Shown: positions 52,714 to 60,914 of the stretch, piece by piece
Numbering within the stretch: position 1 is the first letter of the stretch
Layout of the letters: every line of letters starts with the position of its first letter
Origin: Deltaproteobacteria bacterium
GTDB taxonomy: Bacteria; Myxococcota_A; Polyangia; JAAYKL01
Assembly (NCBI GenBank): GCA_016935665.1
Contig: JAFGQN010000244.1
Location: 62,001 to 126,000, forward strand
Direction: 5' to 3'
Length of the DNA stretch: 64,000 nt
Notes under the pieces: model-generated
The model's database searches: none
What the model was told of the DNA's origin: nothing
The model's input: only the letters and a program-made list of their open reading frames with translations
Program-made: the position numbers and the translations under genes

Positions 52714-55700
52714 TCAATCGCGAACCGGCCGCTTGCGTTGACGAAACCAGGGCCGATACGCCTGCATTCGGGCATGCTGCTCATCGGGGGCATGGCGCTT
52801 GCAAGTGGAAGACTCATCCGATTTCTCTTTAGCGCCCCATCTGATTTCCGGGCAATCATTTGGATTATAGGCCATTTCAAGGGCTTTTTGCCGCTGCGCC
52901 ACATCCGAGAGGGAAAGTCGCCATCGGGACGCATCGCTTCGGGTATACTGAAATTTTCGATTATCCAGCTCGGCTTCCATTATTCGGGTTAAATTATCGA
53001 TGACTCGGTTTATCTCAAAACTATCTGAAATCCCGTATTGTTTTGGGTTTTTAGCAACGTGATTGGGCGTCATGAGCACCGCATCGAGCGCAATCAGTAA
53101 CCGCATATCTCTGGAAGGCGTGGAATAATCCTCCCACGGGCCTTCTGTTTGAAAGATGGCCTGTCCCTCAGGCATTTCGATTGGATTGAAGTCGTTCTCC
53201 GCCATGAAGGCTTCTCCATTTTCAATGGCCTGTCCCCGTCTTTTTACCGCTTCGTGAAGAGCGTCAATCTGACTTTGCAACAATTCTTCAGCATTCAGGG
53301 GCATGGGATTTATCAATTGCTGCATTTTTGCGTAGAATGCATCTATTCCATTTTCATATTGCGATAAACTGTATCTGGAAAAGATGCGACTTTTGCGCAG
53401 GGACCTGTTGTCCATCGTCTCTGGAACTTTCACCGTGCCGGTGTCCGTGATTTCATCCACTATTTCAATTGGGCGAAATCGTTTAAAACCGGCACCGTAA
53501 CTTTCGGTGTCCGCATCAAACAGGAAATCACCGCGCCAGAACCGTCGTCTGCCAATGGTGCCATCGGGCTGTCCGTCCACCGCCATCAGAATGCCATGTC
53601 CACCGGCGGGTTGCGGCACCCATTTGCTCAATATCATGATGTGACCGTATGGGTCGGCGAAGATGGTGCCCGGGGGCAGTGACTGGCGAGATAAATTGAC
53701 CGGGTAAAAGTCACTTTCATCGGATGCCGGGTGAGTGCGGCCGCTGGCGGAATGCGCGTTCCAGCCAATTACCACGTTGGCAAAGCGCTCGAAGATTTTG
53801 GCTTCACTGTCCAGTTCTTCTTCAAAAGGCGCTTCAATCAGATTTGTTTGAAATTCGCTGCAGGATGGTGGGCGCCCTTTTCGGCCTCGGCTACATGAAC
53901 GAACACCAAACGGCAATCCGGTTTTCCATGAGAAATACGCGCGAAGGAAATAGGGAAGGTCTGCGCAATCCGGCGTTAGTTGCAGTTCATCATCCTCGTC
54001 CTGGCCCAGATGATTATACAGCAGATTACGATTGGCATCCTTCAGCACTTCCTGCAATCCATGCCAGGTGATGTCGGATTCAACGGGCAAGTCAAACAGC
54101 TGCTCCACGAAGGCGGAAAAAAAGTTCTCGGTATCCGGTTCCCACTTCCAGCGATTTTCCCAATAGGGACCGGGTTCTTCCCGCGCTTTTTTTTTTGAGC
54201 GCCAGGGGCGGACAGTGAATTCATCACATGCAAATATGGTTTCGCCGTCTCCCAGTACAGCCGTATACGTTCCCACTTCGAGGGGAACAAATTGGGTCCA
54301 GACCGTATACGGCGGTCCCCCCAGCTGATGCACCGTATGGGAGAGTGGACGGCCCAATGGTCCGAAAATCTGTAGCGTGGATGGACCTGGATTCTGTGAA
54401 CCGGTTGCAATGAGCCGGGCCGGCTCATTCGTTATCAGTCGGCGAGGCGATTGAAAAATACGCTGTTCGATGGAGTCAGTGCATTTGTCCGTTGGCATCA
54501 CCGGGCGCTTTGCTGCGCGATGGTTTAGCACCGGTTGCAATTCGGTGGCCGGTGATGAACCGAAAATGACAAGATTCGTTGTCCTTTCCAGAAATGAACG
54601 TCTGGAGCTCCCAAGTCCCAGTGAAAGATCGGTAACTACCACCTTTTTTACGCGAAAGACCGTTTCGCCCCTCCTGGAATCTGTGGTGTCGCAAGGACGG
54701 GCGTACTCTCCCAGTGCATGAATGGCCATTGGGACGCCGCTTTCACTCCGACCCAGATAAAACATAATATGTCCAGGGAAGTACAGGGCCACGATGCCAC
54801 TTTGATTGGCAAGGTCCAGATAGTGCTGCTTCTGAGACAGGTCCTTTACTTTCGATACATCCACCGAAAATACGCCGGCAACGGATTGCTGTTTACTGTT
54901 TCTGGGCAGGACAATGTGGAATGTGCCCATGACATCCATTACAAATCTGGAACAATCCAGTCCATTGCCCGATCCGCCATAACCATATGGGTGCCCCAGG
55001 TACTGGAACGCGGTGTCGATAAATGTGCGGCGTGTGAGCGCTCTGCGGGTATGGATAGCATCTTTGGGAATAGCGGACGCGCAAAACGAGTCGGAGCGTG
55101 CGACGAGTATTTCCTGGTTGGGTAGTGTCGGGACGTATATGCGTGGCTGCAGCGCCACAACCGTGTCATCACAAGCCACATTGGATTCACTGGTCAACCA
55201 CATCTTTGGCGCATTTATGTATGCATCGCGGTACTTGTCGGGGATATTGGGCGAGTGTGGCACGTTGCGCGATACGAATCCAAATGCATACGGGGTGCGA
55301 ACAAAAAGCATGTCATTCTTCCACTGTCCAAGCACCTCGAACGGTTCCTGGGCCCCAATAGTGCTGCATGCATTTTTGTCGTATGTCATATCGGAATCTG
55401 CGTTGTAGAGAGGCGCATCGAAAGGCACGCATCGCATCTGGATTGGATTTATTGCCACGTACCAGATTCTGGCCTGTTCTTCACTGCTTAAAATCCCGGC
55501 GTCCCGCTGCAAATTTTTTCTCTGCGGCGGCGGCATTGGCTTGCCAGTGTGGGTTACCAGCAGATTTTGCTCGACGAGTGACGATATGGCCTGAAGGCGA
55601 GTGTGTATTTCAACTTCCTGTCGTTCGGGATTGATAGGCTCCAGCAGATTCCATTGACTCGCAGGCAAAATTCCGCTTTGCCCTACAGCCGCATTTTGAC

Positions 55701-55992
55701 TGGCAATGTCCCTTGTTGTGAGTAACGGTTTGTCCAGCTCACTGGTTTTCCATCGGGAAAGCCAGAATTCGGGCGTTTGATGTTCCGGCTGGATAAAGGG
55801 GAAGGCGCCCCTGTGGTTGGCCGTCTCAGGACAATTAACGACAGGGCGCGAGTGCGCCAAGGTCGACCCTTTGACGGTTGCGCGGGACGATGGTTTGGTA
55901 ATTGAACGGCGGGATTCCGAACACCCCTGGATGCACGCCACCAGCGATAAAAGAATGAGCCTCGCGCAGAGAATGTAAAAACGATTTTTCAT
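52714..55992 (-). CDS. Large lipoprotein with two cysteine-peptidase-like domains (NlpC/P60 type)
   Basis: 1092 residues. The signal peptide ends in a lipobox (SLVAC near residue 20). SH3-like strands lie at about 170-300. Residues about 320-450 are NlpC/P60: GNGLDCSRFVMDVMGTF with the nucleophile near 347, and YFPGHIMFYLG with the catalytic His near 407. An immunoglobulin-like stretch (about 525-600) follows. Residues about 650-840 look like a second papain-fold domain: LTPDCADLPYFLRAYF with Cys near 676, and FADPYGHIMILSKW with His near 782. The rest is helical. NlpC/P60 proteins cleave cell-wall peptides next to D-Glu. The function of the second domain is inferred only from spacing and motif shape. 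Confidence 0.75.
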   Translation of the reverse strand: MKNRFYILCARLILLSLVACIQGCSESRRSITKPSSRATVKGSTLAHSRPVVNCPETANHRGAFPFIQPEHQTPEFWLSRWKTSELDKPLLTTRDIASQNAAVGQSGILPASQWNLLEPINPERQEVEIHTRLQAISSLVEQNLLVTHTGKPMPPPQRKNLQRDAGILSSEEQARIWYVAINPIQMRCVPFDAPLYNADSDMTYDKNACSTIGAQEPFEVLGQWKNDMLFVRTPYAFGFVSRNVPHSPNIPDKYRDAYINAPKMWLTSESNVACDDTVVALQPRIYVPTLPNQEILVARSDSFCASAIPKDAIHTRRALTRRTFIDTAFQYLGHPYGYGGSGNGLDCSRFVMDVMGTFHIVLPRNSKQQSVAGVFSVDVSKVKDLSQKQHYLDLANQSGIVALYFPGHIMFYLGRSESGVPMAIHALGEYARPCDTTDSRRGETVFRVKKVVVTDLSLGLGSSRRSFLERTTNLVIFGSSPATELQPVLNHRAAKRPVMPTDKCTDSIEQRIFQSPRRLITNEPARLIATGSQNPGPSTLQIFGPLGRPLSHTVHQLGGPPYTVWTQFVPLEVGTYTAVLGDGETIFACDEFTVRPWRSKKKAREEPGPYWENRWKWEPDTENFFSAFVEQLFDLPVESDITWHGLQEVLKDANRNLLYNHLGQDEDDELQLTPDCADLPYFLRAYFSWKTGLPFGVRSCSRGRKGRPPSCSEFQTNLIEAPFEEELDSEAKIFERFANVVIGWNAHSASGRTHPASDESDFYPVNLSRQSLPPGTIFADPYGHIMILSKWVPQPAGGHGILMAVDGQPDGTIGRRRFWRGDFLFDADTESYGAGFKRFRPIEIVDEITDTGTVKVPETMDNRSLRKSRIFSRYSLSQYENGIDAFYAKMQQLINPMPLNAEELLQSQIDALHEAVKRRGQAIENGEAFMAENDFNPIEMPEGQAIFQTEGPWEDYSTPSRDMRLLIALDAVLMTPNHVAKNPKQYGISDSFEINRVIDNLTRIMEAELDNRKFQYTRSDASRWRLSLSDVAQRQKALEMAYNPNDCPEIRWGAKEKSDESSTCKRHAPDEQHARMQAYRPWFRQRKRPVRD

Positions 55993-56299: not shown

Positions 56300-57142
56300 A
56301 TGAGATTTTCCATTTTCGTCCTGATGGCATTGTTGGCTGGAATGCTGGGGACTTTGGGATGTGCGGCAGAAGATGATACCGCTGGAGCCGATGGAGATTC
56401 GGATGGCGACAGCGATTCAGATGGCGATTCGGACAGCGATTCGGATGGCGACAGTGATGGGGATTCGGATGGCGACAGCGATGGCGACAGTGACAGCGAC
56501 GGCGATAGCGATGGCGATAACGATGGGACCCTGACTGGTATCCTTCGCGATTTCTACGAAGAACATCCCGATTTTGAGTATGTCATTCGATCGGAAAAAG
56601 GAATCGTTGAAGATCGATTGGGAGACGATCGAAAGCCGGTTTACGCTGGAGATGAAGAAGGTACCAATACTACCCACGGTCCCGAAGAATTTTCCCAATG
56701 GTTTAACGACGTTGAAGGGGTGAATAAATCGATGGAGTTTACCCTGCCGCTGGAATTGGATTCAACAGGCCAATGGGTCTATGACAACCAGAAATTTTTC
56801 CCCATCGATGACGAGTTGTTTGGAAATGAGGAGAGAGACCACAACTACCATTTCACTTTTGAACTGCATACAGAATTTACTTACAATGGCAATGAAGTGT
56901 TTACGTTCATCGGTGATGATGATTTGTGGGTGTTCATCAATGATCGTCTCGCCATTGATCTTGGAGGCGTGCACAATAAGGAAACCGGGTCCGTTGATCT
57001 GGATGAGGATGCTGACGCGCTGGGCATTGAAGTGGGCGAAAAATATTCATTGGATTTCTTTTTTGCCGAACGGCATTCCACGGAATCGCATTTCCGTATC
57101 GAAACCACTATTGAAGAATTGAACGTGATTTTTGTGGAATAA
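56300..57142 (+). CDS. Fibro-slime domain lipoprotein with Ser/Asp/Gly repeat linker
   Basis: 280 residues. The signal peptide MRFSIFVLMALLAGMLGTLGC has a lipobox ending in LGC. Residues about 30-75 are a repeat of DSDGDSDG units. Residues about 78-280 are a fibro-slime domain (TIGR02148, PA14-related): GILRDFYEEHPDFEYV, GVNKSMEFTLPLEL, FTFIGDDDLWVFINDRLAID, LGGVHN and YSLDFFFAERHSTESHFRIE. Such domains occur in cellulosome-associated and slime proteins and may bind glycans with calcium. It is presumably exported and displayed. GGGAGGA precedes the start. Confidence 0.88.
   Translation: MRFSIFVLMALLAGMLGTLGCAAEDDTAGADGDSDGDSDSDGDSDSDSDGDSDGDSDGDSDGDSDSDGDSDGDNDGTLTGILRDFYEEHPDFEYVIRSEKGIVEDRLGDDRKPVYAGDEEGTNTTHGPEEFSQWFNDVEGVNKSMEFTLPLELDSTGQWVYDNQKFFPIDDELFGNEERDHNYHFTFELHTEFTYNGNEVFTFIGDDDLWVFINDRLAIDLGGVHNKETGSVDLDEDADALGIEVGEKYSLDFFFAERHSTESHFRIETTIEELNVIFVE
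56391..56522 (+). repeat. Short-unit tandem repeat coding the Ser-Asp-Gly linker
   Basis: Six-base units of the form GATTCG/GATGGC/GACAGC/GATAGC recur about 22 times in frame and encode alternating Asp-Ser and Asp-Gly dipeptides. The units are in phase with codons, so length change would alter the linker without frameshift. Confidence 0.7.
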
Positions 57143-57218
57143 CTAAGGTTTCCGCATCTGTTTCCTCAACATCACTATAATTTGCATTCGAATAAAATTG
57201 TGTAGTATGCTAGGCCAC

Positions 57219-58061
57219 ATGTGGGTTTGTGTCAGAAATTGTTTGATTCTTATTGGCGCGATGATATTACTTGTCGGGTGCGGTGCCGCAGGGTCGGGTT
57301 CACGGTCGCATCAAAAGTCGTCTTCGCTGAACCGCAATTCGCTCCGGGATGACGGACGGTCAGTCGGAATTCAGAAAAATCGGGGCTCGGTTCGATATCA
57401 TGACGCGACAGCGCTAAAAGGGAAAGGGAGCAAAACCGAAGTTGCATCCCGAAATACGACTGCCCGGAGGATGGCTGGATGGGACGTCACCGCGGAAAGG
57501 GTGATGGAAGTGGCGCCGCTGGTGGAAGAAGCAGCTCAAAAATACGGTCTGCCGGCCAGTCTGATATATGGGATCATCTGGGTGGAGTCCCGGTTTAATC
57601 CGGATGCCGTATCGCCGGTGGGCGCCCGGGGACTGATGCAGTTGATGCCCAGAACAGCGGCGTATCTGGCCGATTGCATGGAATGGGAAGGTTCCACCAA
57701 TTCTTTTAATCCACGTTTTAATATTGCAGCAGGGAGTTATTATATCGCACGGTTGATAAAGCAGTTTGACGGCGACGTGGATTTGGCGCTGGCGGCGTAT
57801 AATGCAGGACCTACAAATATTCGTCGCTGGATGAAAAACACTGGATTACCCGAGGTTTCCATAGAGTATTACACGATGGTGCAGACCGCTCAGCAATATT
57901 TTCCCGCATCCGGGACCGATTCTTCTGACGCCGGGGAGGTTGGACTGCCGACGGATGATGATCTTGATCGGCTTGGACTGGCAATATTGATAGCCGGTTT
58001 GTCCCAACGTGAATTTGGGCTGGAGCGGCCAGATGATGCCAATCCGTTTGATGACATGTAG
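57219..58061 (+). CDS. Lytic transglycosylase lipoprotein (SLT domain)
   Basis: 280 residues from the ATG at 57219; an ATG at 57207 is also possible and the ribosome-binding site is weak. The signal peptide ends LLVGCG, a clear lipobox. After a basic linker, residues about 100-215 form a soluble-lytic-transglycosylase fold: catalytic Glu in GIIWVESRFNPDAVSPVGARGLMQLMP, then AAGSYYIARLIKQFDGDVDLALAAYNAGP. It cleaves the MurNAc-GlcNAc bond with anhydro-ring formation. It should sit in the outer membrane facing the cell wall. The C-terminus is polar, ending FDDM. Confidence 0.92.
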   Translation: MWVCVRNCLILIGAMILLVGCGAAGSGSRSHQKSSSLNRNSLRDDGRSVGIQKNRGSVRYHDATALKGKGSKTEVASRNTTARRMAGWDVTAERVMEVAPLVEEAAQKYGLPASLIYGIIWVESRFNPDAVSPVGARGLMQLMPRTAAYLADCMEWEGSTNSFNPRFNIAAGSYYIARLIKQFDGDVDLALAAYNAGPTNIRRWMKNTGLPEVSIEYYTMVQTAQQYFPASGTDSSDAGEVGLPTDDDLDRLGLAILIAGLSQREFGLERPDDANPFDDM

Positions 58062-58295: not shown

Positions 58296-60914
58296 ATGGG
58301 TTTATTTCGATTCCTGCATTTATCAATCTTCACGTTATTGGCTGTGGCAGTCCTGTTCTCCGTCAACGCGAGAGCACAGAAAGTGTATAACGCCCCAACT
58401 GAAGGCATTTTTCTGCCGTCACCGTCCCTGACCGAAGTGAGCGACGCGACAGCCATTGCCACCAATCCGGCCAATATCGGGTTTCTGGATTCGTGGAGTT
58501 TTGTGTATGCCGCGGCGTCATCGACGAAGTATTCTCATTTGCCCGGTCAGGGGCATGGTTTTTTTCTGGCTTTTCCCGCAGGACCATTGGGATTTGGTGT
58601 GGGAACCGAATTGCTGCTTCCTCATGAATACATCAGGGATTGGCAGGGACTCGATAAGCGAGGGCGTCTGTCGCTGGCCATGTCGCTGAATCCGTCCAAA
58701 GGTCTGGGGCTGGGAATCGCCTATCGCCGCTCCATGCGGTATCACACCGGTGATGTCATGCGCAGTCTGGATTTGAGTCTCTCGGTGCGTCCCATTAATC
58801 ATTTGAGTGTTGCGTTCACCTACAGCGATGTGAATGCGCCCAAAGTGAGCTATCGTCCCATCGAATATCAGTCCGTGCGTATGCCGGCCCGGCGGGAAGA
58901 TGCTCCCAAACGGTTTGTGTCGGCGCTGACGGTTCGCCCATTTGGGGACGATCGCGTGGCGCTGGGGGCTGAATTGCACTATATGCATGGCGATCGGAAA
59001 CTGTATGATTTGATTGATCAAAATTTCACGACAGATTCGTTTCACCGCACTGACTTGCATGCCATTGCGACGGTGGTGCTCACCGATGGTATTTCCCTGC
59101 GCGGCAGATTTGTGGCTGAAGGCATTCATACAGATGACATTCCAAATGAGTATTATATGGACGCGTCCATTTCCATCGATTCCGCACGATTCCCGTTCGG
59201 TTTTTTGGCATCTCCATATTTCAAATTATACCCGGCGAGCCACGATGGATTTGAAGGGATGAGCATGGCGGTTCGTTTTTCGGGAGATACGCCCCGATCC
59301 ATTCCACTCATTCTGGCCCCCGCCTACATTGTGCCAATTGAAATCGAACGAAAAATGGGGACATTGGAATTTGGGCAGTTAATGGAAGGCATGGAGCGCA
59401 TACGGCTCGACAAAAGTGTGGATATGCTGTTGTTCAAACCAAAGCCGGGAACCATTCCGCTCACTTTGGCCCTCGGTGTGCGGCGGGAACTTCAGGCCAT
59501 TAATCGCACCGGCAAAAAGACGTTGTGTTATTTGGAGGAAGCCGATGCGGGAAGCTATGTGGCCTGCAGCGCAGCTTCCCAAATCTGGGTGAATCCGGCT
59601 GGCGGGATGCATCTCTCCGGACTGTCGACCCATATGGTGTACTTCAAAAATCTGCTGGATAAAATTGGAGTAAAAGCCGAAGTGATCCAGGTTGGCGAAT
59701 ATAAAAGCGCCCCTGAAACTTTTACTCAAACAGGTCCCACCCATCCGGCGGATAAGGCGATGAATCGGTTTATGGATTCCGTATACGGCGCCATGGTGCG
59801 TGCGATTCAAAAAGATCGCGGATTTAGGAATATGGAAGACGCCAGAAAAGCCATTGAGTCCGGGCCGTTTCTGGCGGATGAGGCGGTGCAGTTTAAACTG
59901 GCCGATCGCGCTGTGGGAGCCGATGAATTGGAGGCCGAGTTTGAAAAGCTGTTTGAAAGTCCAATTTACATTGCGGAAAACTACGGCCGCAAACCCCAAA
60001 GAAGTCAACAGTATCTGGATTCTCCCGCTGTGGCCGTGTTGCATATCGAAGGAGACATAAAAGAAGGTGAAAGCGTGCATCTGCCCTTCTTTGGCGTTAA
60101 TACCGTTGGTTCCGATACACTGAAAAAACAAATCCGGGAACTAAAAGATGACAGTCGCATCCGCGCGGTAGTCGTACGCATCAATTCGCCGGGGGGATCC
60201 GCATTGGCCTCGGATATCATCTGGCGTGAGCTGATGGCGTTGCGTAGAGAAAAACCGGTGGTTGTGTCCATGGGAAGTGTGGCAGCATCCGGCGGTTACT
60301 TGCTGGCGTCTGCGGCGGATGTGATTTTTGCGGAGTCTACAAGCCTCACGGGGTCCATTGGGGTTTATTACGGCAAAGCCGATATTTCGGGGTTGCTGGA
60401 TAAGGTGGGCATTTCCACCAAAACCTATGCGCGAGGGGCCTTCTCGGATATGCAGTCCTGGATACGACCATACACGCCGGAAGAGCGGGAGAAGCTTTTG
60501 AAACAAGTGACCAAAGTGTATCAGAACCTGAAAAAACACATCGCCGAGGGACGTGGCAATCGTTTGTCTCTGGCAGCTGTTGAAAAAGTGGGGCAAGGAC
60601 GCATATGGAGCGGTTCCGACGCGAAGCTTCATAATCTGGTCGATCGTATTGGCGGGTATCAGGACGCGTTAAACTACACACGTGTGCTGGCGCAAGTCAG
60701 TTCCGGCACCAGAGTGCGACATGTCCCGGAACCGTCCAGAACCATGATGACCTTTATTGCGCGCCAGATGGGCATGGCAAAGGCCGGGAATCAGAACCTG
60801 CTCACGCTTTCTAAAGAGACCCGCGAAACATTGAAGGCGGCGTTGCCATTCGCGCTCTCCAACCATGCTTCGGCGCAGGCACGACTTCCGTTTGCGATTA
60901 TCGAAACGGAATAA
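58296..60914 (+). CDS. sppA: Beta-barrel/SppA fusion: signal peptide peptidase with N-terminal outer-membrane-like domain
   Basis: 872 residues, AGGAG before the ATG. A signal peptide (1-28, ending NARAQ) leads into a domain of about 330 residues with the start of a PorV/TraF/OMPP1-like barrel (SDATAIATNPANIGFLDSWS) and many amphipathic strands. From about 365 on it is an SppA protease of the long, tandem-domain kind. The general-base Lys is in VGEYKSAPETF (near 472), the nucleophile Ser in SVAASGGYLLASAADVI (near 667), plus INSPGGSALASDI and LTGSIGVYYGKADI. SppA normally sits in the inner membrane and degrades cleaved signal peptides. A barrel-like domain on the same chain would move it to the outer membrane or surface. 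Confidence 0.85.
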   Translation: MGLFRFLHLSIFTLLAVAVLFSVNARAQKVYNAPTEGIFLPSPSLTEVSDATAIATNPANIGFLDSWSFVYAAASSTKYSHLPGQGHGFFLAFPAGPLGFGVGTELLLPHEYIRDWQGLDKRGRLSLAMSLNPSKGLGLGIAYRRSMRYHTGDVMRSLDLSLSVRPINHLSVAFTYSDVNAPKVSYRPIEYQSVRMPARREDAPKRFVSALTVRPFGDDRVALGAELHYMHGDRKLYDLIDQNFTTDSFHRTDLHAIATVVLTDGISLRGRFVAEGIHTDDIPNEYYMDASISIDSARFPFGFLASPYFKLYPASHDGFEGMSMAVRFSGDTPRSIPLILAPAYIVPIEIERKMGTLEFGQLMEGMERIRLDKSVDMLLFKPKPGTIPLTLALGVRRELQAINRTGKKTLCYLEEADAGSYVACSAASQIWVNPAGGMHLSGLSTHMVYFKNLLDKIGVKAEVIQVGEYKSAPETFTQTGPTHPADKAMNRFMDSVYGAMVRAIQKDRGFRNMEDARKAIESGPFLADEAVQFKLADRAVGADELEAEFEKLFESPIYIAENYGRKPQRSQQYLDSPAVAVLHIEGDIKEGESVHLPFFGVNTVGSDTLKKQIRELKDDSRIRAVVVRINSPGGSALASDIIWRELMALRREKPVVVSMGSVAASGGYLLASAADVIFAESTSLTGSIGVYYGKADISGLLDKVGISTKTYARGAFSDMQSWIRPYTPEEREKLLKQVTKVYQNLKKHIAEGRGNRLSLAAVEKVGQGRIWSGSDAKLHNLVDRIGGYQDALNYTRVLAQVSSGTRVRHVPEPSRTMMTFIARQMGMAKAGNQNLLTLSKETRETLKAALPFALSNHASAQARLPFAIIETE

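Follow-up and report, generated by a model that had tools for sequence, protein, structure and literature searches.

The gene described here, barrel-SppA, encodes a complete tandem SppA protease preceded by what structure prediction indicates to be a FadL-type outer-membrane barrel. It occupies positions 58296-60914 on the + strand of the window, by which we mean the whole 64,000-nucleotide stretch of DNA that was analyzed, and reads as 872 amino acids without internal stops on a 133.5-kb contig from an assembly of 8.16 Mb in 249 contigs. All of its features given below lie on the same strand. An earlier note on this DNA had proposed a fusion of an N-terminal barrel-type domain with SppA, and that fusion is found at exactly these positions and recurs in relatives. 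The order of signal peptide, outer-membrane barrel and full tandem SppA, together with its orientation, is well supported by the predicted structures. We consider it probable that the product is anchored in the outer membrane with its SppA facing the periplasm, and that it clears hydrophobic polypeptides that have failed or are left over there. Both halves belong to known families, and their combination and spread appear undescribed: a search of the literature, mostly of papers accessible without subscription, found no description of this layout. This agrees with the earlier suggestion that no characterized protein has it, although the layout itself is common in uncharacterized genomes of three phyla.

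SppA is textbook inner-membrane machinery that clears signal peptides. The protease half of barrel-SppA is matched twice by PF01343 (E 6.1e-65), which indicates two Peptidase_S49 domains in tandem. The first forms the SppA N-terminal domain at residues 344-575 (59325-60020), delimited from PF01343, TIGR00706, the alignment with 3bez and Foldseek, and the second forms the C-terminal domain at residues 576-800 (60021-60695), where the best PF01343 stretch covers residues 649-801. The score against the domain model TIGR00706 is above its cut-off (225.7 versus 155.45), and that against the full-length equivalog TIGR00705 falls slightly below its own (288.2 versus 311.45). The alignment with E. coli SppA (3bez, E 3.6e-54) covers residues 397-814 and pairs the catalytic lysine K470 (59703-59705, within VGEYKSAPE) with the lysine of the E. 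coli YKSA motif and the catalytic serine S687 (60354-60356, within LTGSIGVYYGK) with the serine of TGSIG. K470 is kept in 41/41 homologues and S687 in all 40 with sequence at that position, one of the 41 rows being incomplete, and the earlier claim of a complete tandem SppA with both catalytic residues is borne out. Judged from the aligned motifs, the Ser/Lys dyad is divided between the two S49 domains, as in long tandem SppA. Barrel-SppA shares with E. coli SppA (protease IV; 3bez, 3bf0; TIGR00705, S49) the tandem S49 domains over their full length and a lysine and serine in the same motifs, whereas a predicted outer-membrane barrel takes the place of the inner-membrane helix by which the E. 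coli enzyme is anchored.

The full-length model (pLDDT 87.1, pTM 0.84) finds E. coli SppA 3bf0 as its closest match in the PDB (TMt 0.82 over ~495 columns), with FadL next. The high whole-protein pTM suggests a defined placement of the modeled barrel and SppA relative to each other. Strand 14 of the barrel stops at residue 329 in this model and the first SppA strand starts at residue 343, which bounds the linker that joins the two (residues 331-343; 59286-59324), a variable and poorly conserved stretch. The C-terminal tail (residues 801-872; 60696-60911) is of low confidence, with pLDDT values of 47-71 from about residue 811, and ends in the family motif ARLPF, which lies close to the C-terminus in most aligned members of the barrel-SppA family.

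Inspection of the remaining genome reveals a second SppA, a barrel-less protein of 594 amino acids (C102) with the lipobox LISGC. It is a tandem SppA like barrel-SppA but lacks the barrel, and in the SppA tree it occupies a branch separate from barrel-SppA. A lipoprotein SppA copy is likewise present in each other genome of the family that was examined, and further members of the class carry lipoprotein or helix-anchored SppAs. The ordinary SppA role could be filled by the 594-residue lipoprotein copy.

The domain ahead of the protease spans residues 28-330 (58377-59285), and its assignment as a FadL-type 14-stranded outer-membrane barrel draws on AlphaFold2, Foldseek and strand amphipathicity. 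An AlphaFold2 model of the barrel domain, generated from a 41-row alignment without templates, has two short helices (residues 53-63, in the NPA segment) ahead of 14 strands, most of which alternate between hydrophobic and polar residues. Its pLDDT of 89.1 and pTM of 0.84 answer the AlphaFold check suggested in the earlier note. When the model was compared with the PDB using Foldseek, ranks 1-16 were all FadL, TodX, TbuX or CymD (E 5e-10 to 9e-7) with moderate TM-scores (TMq 0.49-0.57), which supports, at the level of a model, the idea of a protease embedded in the outer membrane. The two helices belong to a hatch segment (residues 52-66; 58449-58493), defined by motif conservation and the model helices, whose NPA motif (N57-P58-A59) retains N in 39/41, P in 39/41 and A in 35/41 homologues. 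The 14-stranded barrel and an N-terminal hatch with NPA are shared with the FadL/TodX/TbuX/CymD channels for hydrophobic compounds (PF03349); FadL stops after its last strand, whereas barrel-SppA continues for ~540 more residues that hold the protease. The label 'PorV/TraF-like' that this region had been given was right in kind, given that PorV belongs to the FadL family (PMC12578637), but the closest solved fold is FadL/TodX, and TraF_2 (PF13729) appears below threshold only.

Kinship with FadL is seen by fold comparison only, as a search of PDB sequences with a profile of the barrel alignment returned no match. The N-terminal domain of the window's protein matches this profile, which includes it, with E 7.2e-109. 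The sole other match in the window's genome is a stand-alone FadL/OMPP1-like protein (L177:1365-2864; G000:C210), which reaches E 5.5e-4 via the NPA segment.

The barrel strands of the full-length model also speak to topology. On the termini side, the turns between them measure 2, 2, 2, 7, 2 and 3 residues, and loops on the opposite side measure 8, 13, 7, 27, 4, 9 and 6 residues. Conservation is highest in the hatch (2.48 bits), which is the best conserved part of the barrel domain, and declines through the turns (2.28) and strands (1.94) to the opposite loops (1.34, with 25% gaps). Short conserved turns inside and long variable loops outside are the usual pattern of an outer-membrane barrel. 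Because the termini-side turns are short and conserved and the opposite loops are longer and variable, SppA is placed in the periplasm and not on the cell surface, an orientation that the model supports well. The 'displayed' of the earlier note, if taken to mean the cell surface, is not supported by this predicted topology. Conservation of the hatch and periplasmic turns next to variable outer loops favors a function directed inward and argues against a specific ligand outside the cell.

From the architecture, the conserved dyad, the barrel fold and topology, the deep conservation and the separate lipoprotein SppA, as read from sequence and prediction, we infer the following role. Sec would export barrel-SppA, the signal peptide would be cleaved off, and the 14-stranded FadL-type barrel would be assembled into the outer membrane. 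The C-terminal barrel strand would end in the periplasm, such that SppA, with Ser687 and Lys470, would lie next to the outer membrane on its inner side, and the barrel would stand in for the usual inner-membrane helix as the SppA anchor. The protein may assemble like the SppA tetramer, and its protease would presumably digest, at the outer membrane, hydrophobic peptides as well as polypeptides that have failed or stalled. Quality control or digestion of exported proteins, as proposed in the earlier note, is a plausible role. A role in signal-peptide clearance is less obvious for an outer-membrane SppA, since signal peptides are released at the inner membrane. The barrel would serve as the anchor and possibly as a docking site, by analogy with the FadL-type BamG in the Bacteroidota BAM complex. 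Because BamG in that complex and PorV in the T9SS are FadL-family barrels with non-transport roles (PMC12611786, PMC12578637), docking of barrel-SppA near assembly machinery is, on this analogy, a fair idea. Both resemble barrel-SppA in that a FadL-type barrel is put to use beyond simple transport at the outer membrane; unlike barrel-SppA, neither is described in these two papers as fused to an enzyme. Deletion of sppA in Flavobacterium columnare, where SppA is helix-anchored, raises vesicle output 3.8-fold, a result that links SppA in general to envelope homeostasis (PMC13236525).

How much the barrel itself contributes can be read in several ways. The barrel may have no role of its own beyond tethering an ordinary SppA to the outer membrane, for instance for periplasmic peptide clean-up, a reading to which we give limited credence. 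Many SppAs in the phylum are anchored by other means, that is by lipoprotein signals or transmembrane helices, and the poor conservation of the linker is likewise consistent with a tether; however, the hatch and periplasmic turns are conserved more than a simple tether seems to require, and a lipoprotein signal of the kind found on the other SppA of the same genome would be cheaper. At the other extreme, we hold only as a tentative idea that these proteins are outer-membrane proteases of a single class that spans phyla, whose FadL-type barrel passes hydrophobic polypeptides, or outer-membrane proteins that have misfolded, straight from the outer membrane into the SppA bowl. Such a class would, just as tentatively, be the outer-membrane counterpart of inner-membrane SppA quality control.

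A nutrient or predation device, in which hydrophobic peptides from the exterior or the outer leaflet would pass through the lumen or wall of the barrel and on to SppA, is an unlikely alternative. FadL-type barrels are known as a family to import hydrophobic molecules (a role restated in PMC12611786), the NPA hatch is retained in most members, and covalent fusion would make direct hand-over possible. However, no other part of the barrel is as poorly conserved as its extracellular loops, which is unlike a dedicated receptor; 59/59 of the Poribacteria sampled have the architecture as well, and no conserved transport partner adjoins the gene at the loci compared.

The N-terminal region was also considered as a soluble beta domain, with the N-terminal helix anchoring the protein in the inner membrane. 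The first 22 residues do form a hydrophobic helix in the full-length model (residues 2-22), and Pfam barrel families all remain below cut-off. Residues 1-350 of the window's protein have no Pfam or NCBIfam match above cut-off; PF03349 (FadL/Toluene_X), below its gathering score throughout, leaves the window's protein unmatched and meets 5/41 homologues weakly (best E 0.016). The weak, sub-threshold Pfam hits to the 41 N-terminal domains are nevertheless headed by outer-membrane barrel families, with Toluene_X/FadL, MtrB_PioB and TraF_2 in front, and speak for a barrel. Against a soluble domain stand the confident 14-strand barrel, its FadL top matches and its topology of short turns and long loops. 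Furthermore, the helix falls within a predicted Sec signal peptide (residues 1-27, MGLFRFLHLSIFTLLAVAVLFSVNARA, followed by Q; 58296-58376) with cleavage between ARA and Q, and a hydrophobic stretch followed by A-x-A is aligned in nearly all homologues. No further hydrophobic helix is found in the protein. Prediction gives a cleavable-looking signal peptide and a barrel where a soluble domain or an SppA-type N-terminal inner-membrane anchor, the outcome by which the earlier note would have been refuted, might have appeared, and a soluble N-terminal region is very improbable.

A wider search for related loci found relatives of barrel-SppA with an alignment as query and none with the single sequence. 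Among 59 related genomes, full-length relatives occur in most families of the window's class. The same family holds 10 complete genes with 42-56% identity, aligned over nearly their full length, and the same genus holds one gene cut by a contig end with 69% identity; relatives in the rest of the class show about 30% identity. Signal peptide, ~300-residue N-terminal domain and SppA follow in the same order in the aligned members (30, then 41). Only a negligible probability attaches to the fusion being an artefact of assembly or gene calling, for although the window comes from a 249-contig assembly, this reading is refuted by recurrence, with an uninterrupted fusion in the 10 complete family genes and the one cut by a contig end as well as in many other families and phyla, and with the short exceptions checked in the phylum stopping at contig edges.

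The fusion was read directly in the 41 aligned members, and its wider spread is given by a barrel match together with ORF length. By this measure 192/284 genomes have the barrel domain in the window's phylum, assigned to Myxococcota from the named relatives L036, L037, L047 and L053, and there 138/150 among the matches listed lie in ORFs of at least 785 residues; the short ORFs with a barrel match that were checked (n=4) are those that stop at contig edges. The architecture is also present in the complete genome of Nannocystis poenicansa, a named Myxococcota strain. In Poribacteria, all 59 genomes sampled carry the barrel domain, each with its best match in a 774-914-residue frame. All 80 Zixibacteria genomes have a barrel match, a count that overstates the fusion, since Zixibacteria also hold weaker stand-alone homologues of 300-340 and ~620 residues; about 66 have a match in a frame of at least 770. 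The search for the same architecture in related genomes that the earlier note had called for is thus positive, and, as judged from these matches, the combination is one that recurs in at least three phyla: Myxococcota, Poribacteria and Zixibacteria.

Three loci from genomes of the Zixibacteria phylum (L185 in G416, nt ~3450 being the break; L186 in G446, nt ~2950; L188 in G418, nt ~2960) have barrel and SppA in different frames. Each break falls at a T9 or A9 run, at or just past the domain junction. None of the in-frame homologues checked carries T9 or A9 at the break position, and one has an A9 nearby and remains in frame. These breaks could be sequencing errors in homopolymers, or could reflect slippage by which both a barrel-only and a fused product are made.

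A tree of SppA cores, built by a quick method, places 33 barrel-SppAs in one group (SH-aLRT 98), of which a single one comes from outside both the window's phylum and the named Myxococcota. This grouping indicates that the anchor has long been retained by this SppA lineage. The Poribacteria and Zixibacteria barrel-SppAs fall apart from the 33-member group, with 4 changes on the tree; the fusion may have had a single origin.

Directly upstream of barrel-SppA lies a lipoprotein lytic transglycosylase with an SLT domain (57198-58061, + strand; PF01464, E 5.4e-34). Three more genomes of the family have a homologue in the same position and orientation, and the transglycosylase is a probable operon neighbor. 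Neighbors differ between families, with no partner common to all loci compared, and for this reason function is not fixed by gene context. Farther upstream, the window encodes a lipoprotein in which a long Asp-Ser-Gly repeat precedes a PA14/fibro-slime-like domain (56300-57142, + strand; PF07691, E 2.6e-8) and a 1092-amino acid lipoprotein-like protein (52714-55992, - strand) with an NlpC/P60 domain within a large sequence otherwise without match.

Convergent barrel-SppA pairs lie close together at L183:3375-15069 (G043), at L184 (G027) and in Nannocystis poenicansa (G322, ~4.025-4.033 Mb). At L183 and L184, which come from another family than the window's, a GroES-like gene is directly upstream of the first copy, and at L183 an M16 peptidase is directly downstream of it. 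The upstream neighbor in Zixibacteria is an exported protein of 350-370 amino acids (L185:4391-5500, L186:3905-5017, L188:4005-5060, L190:1043-2089) that has no confident Pfam match and is at best weakly toastrack-like; it is a possible partner of barrel-SppA.

Taken as an outer-membrane-anchored, periplasm-facing protease, barrel-SppA would be a second SppA that some bacteria seem to maintain at the outer membrane, on its periplasmic side, instead of at the inner membrane. If this is true, peptide clearance of the SppA kind would exist at the outer membrane too, beside the ordinary SppA copy, and FadL-type barrels would have been recruited to a third role, after those of PorV and BamG.
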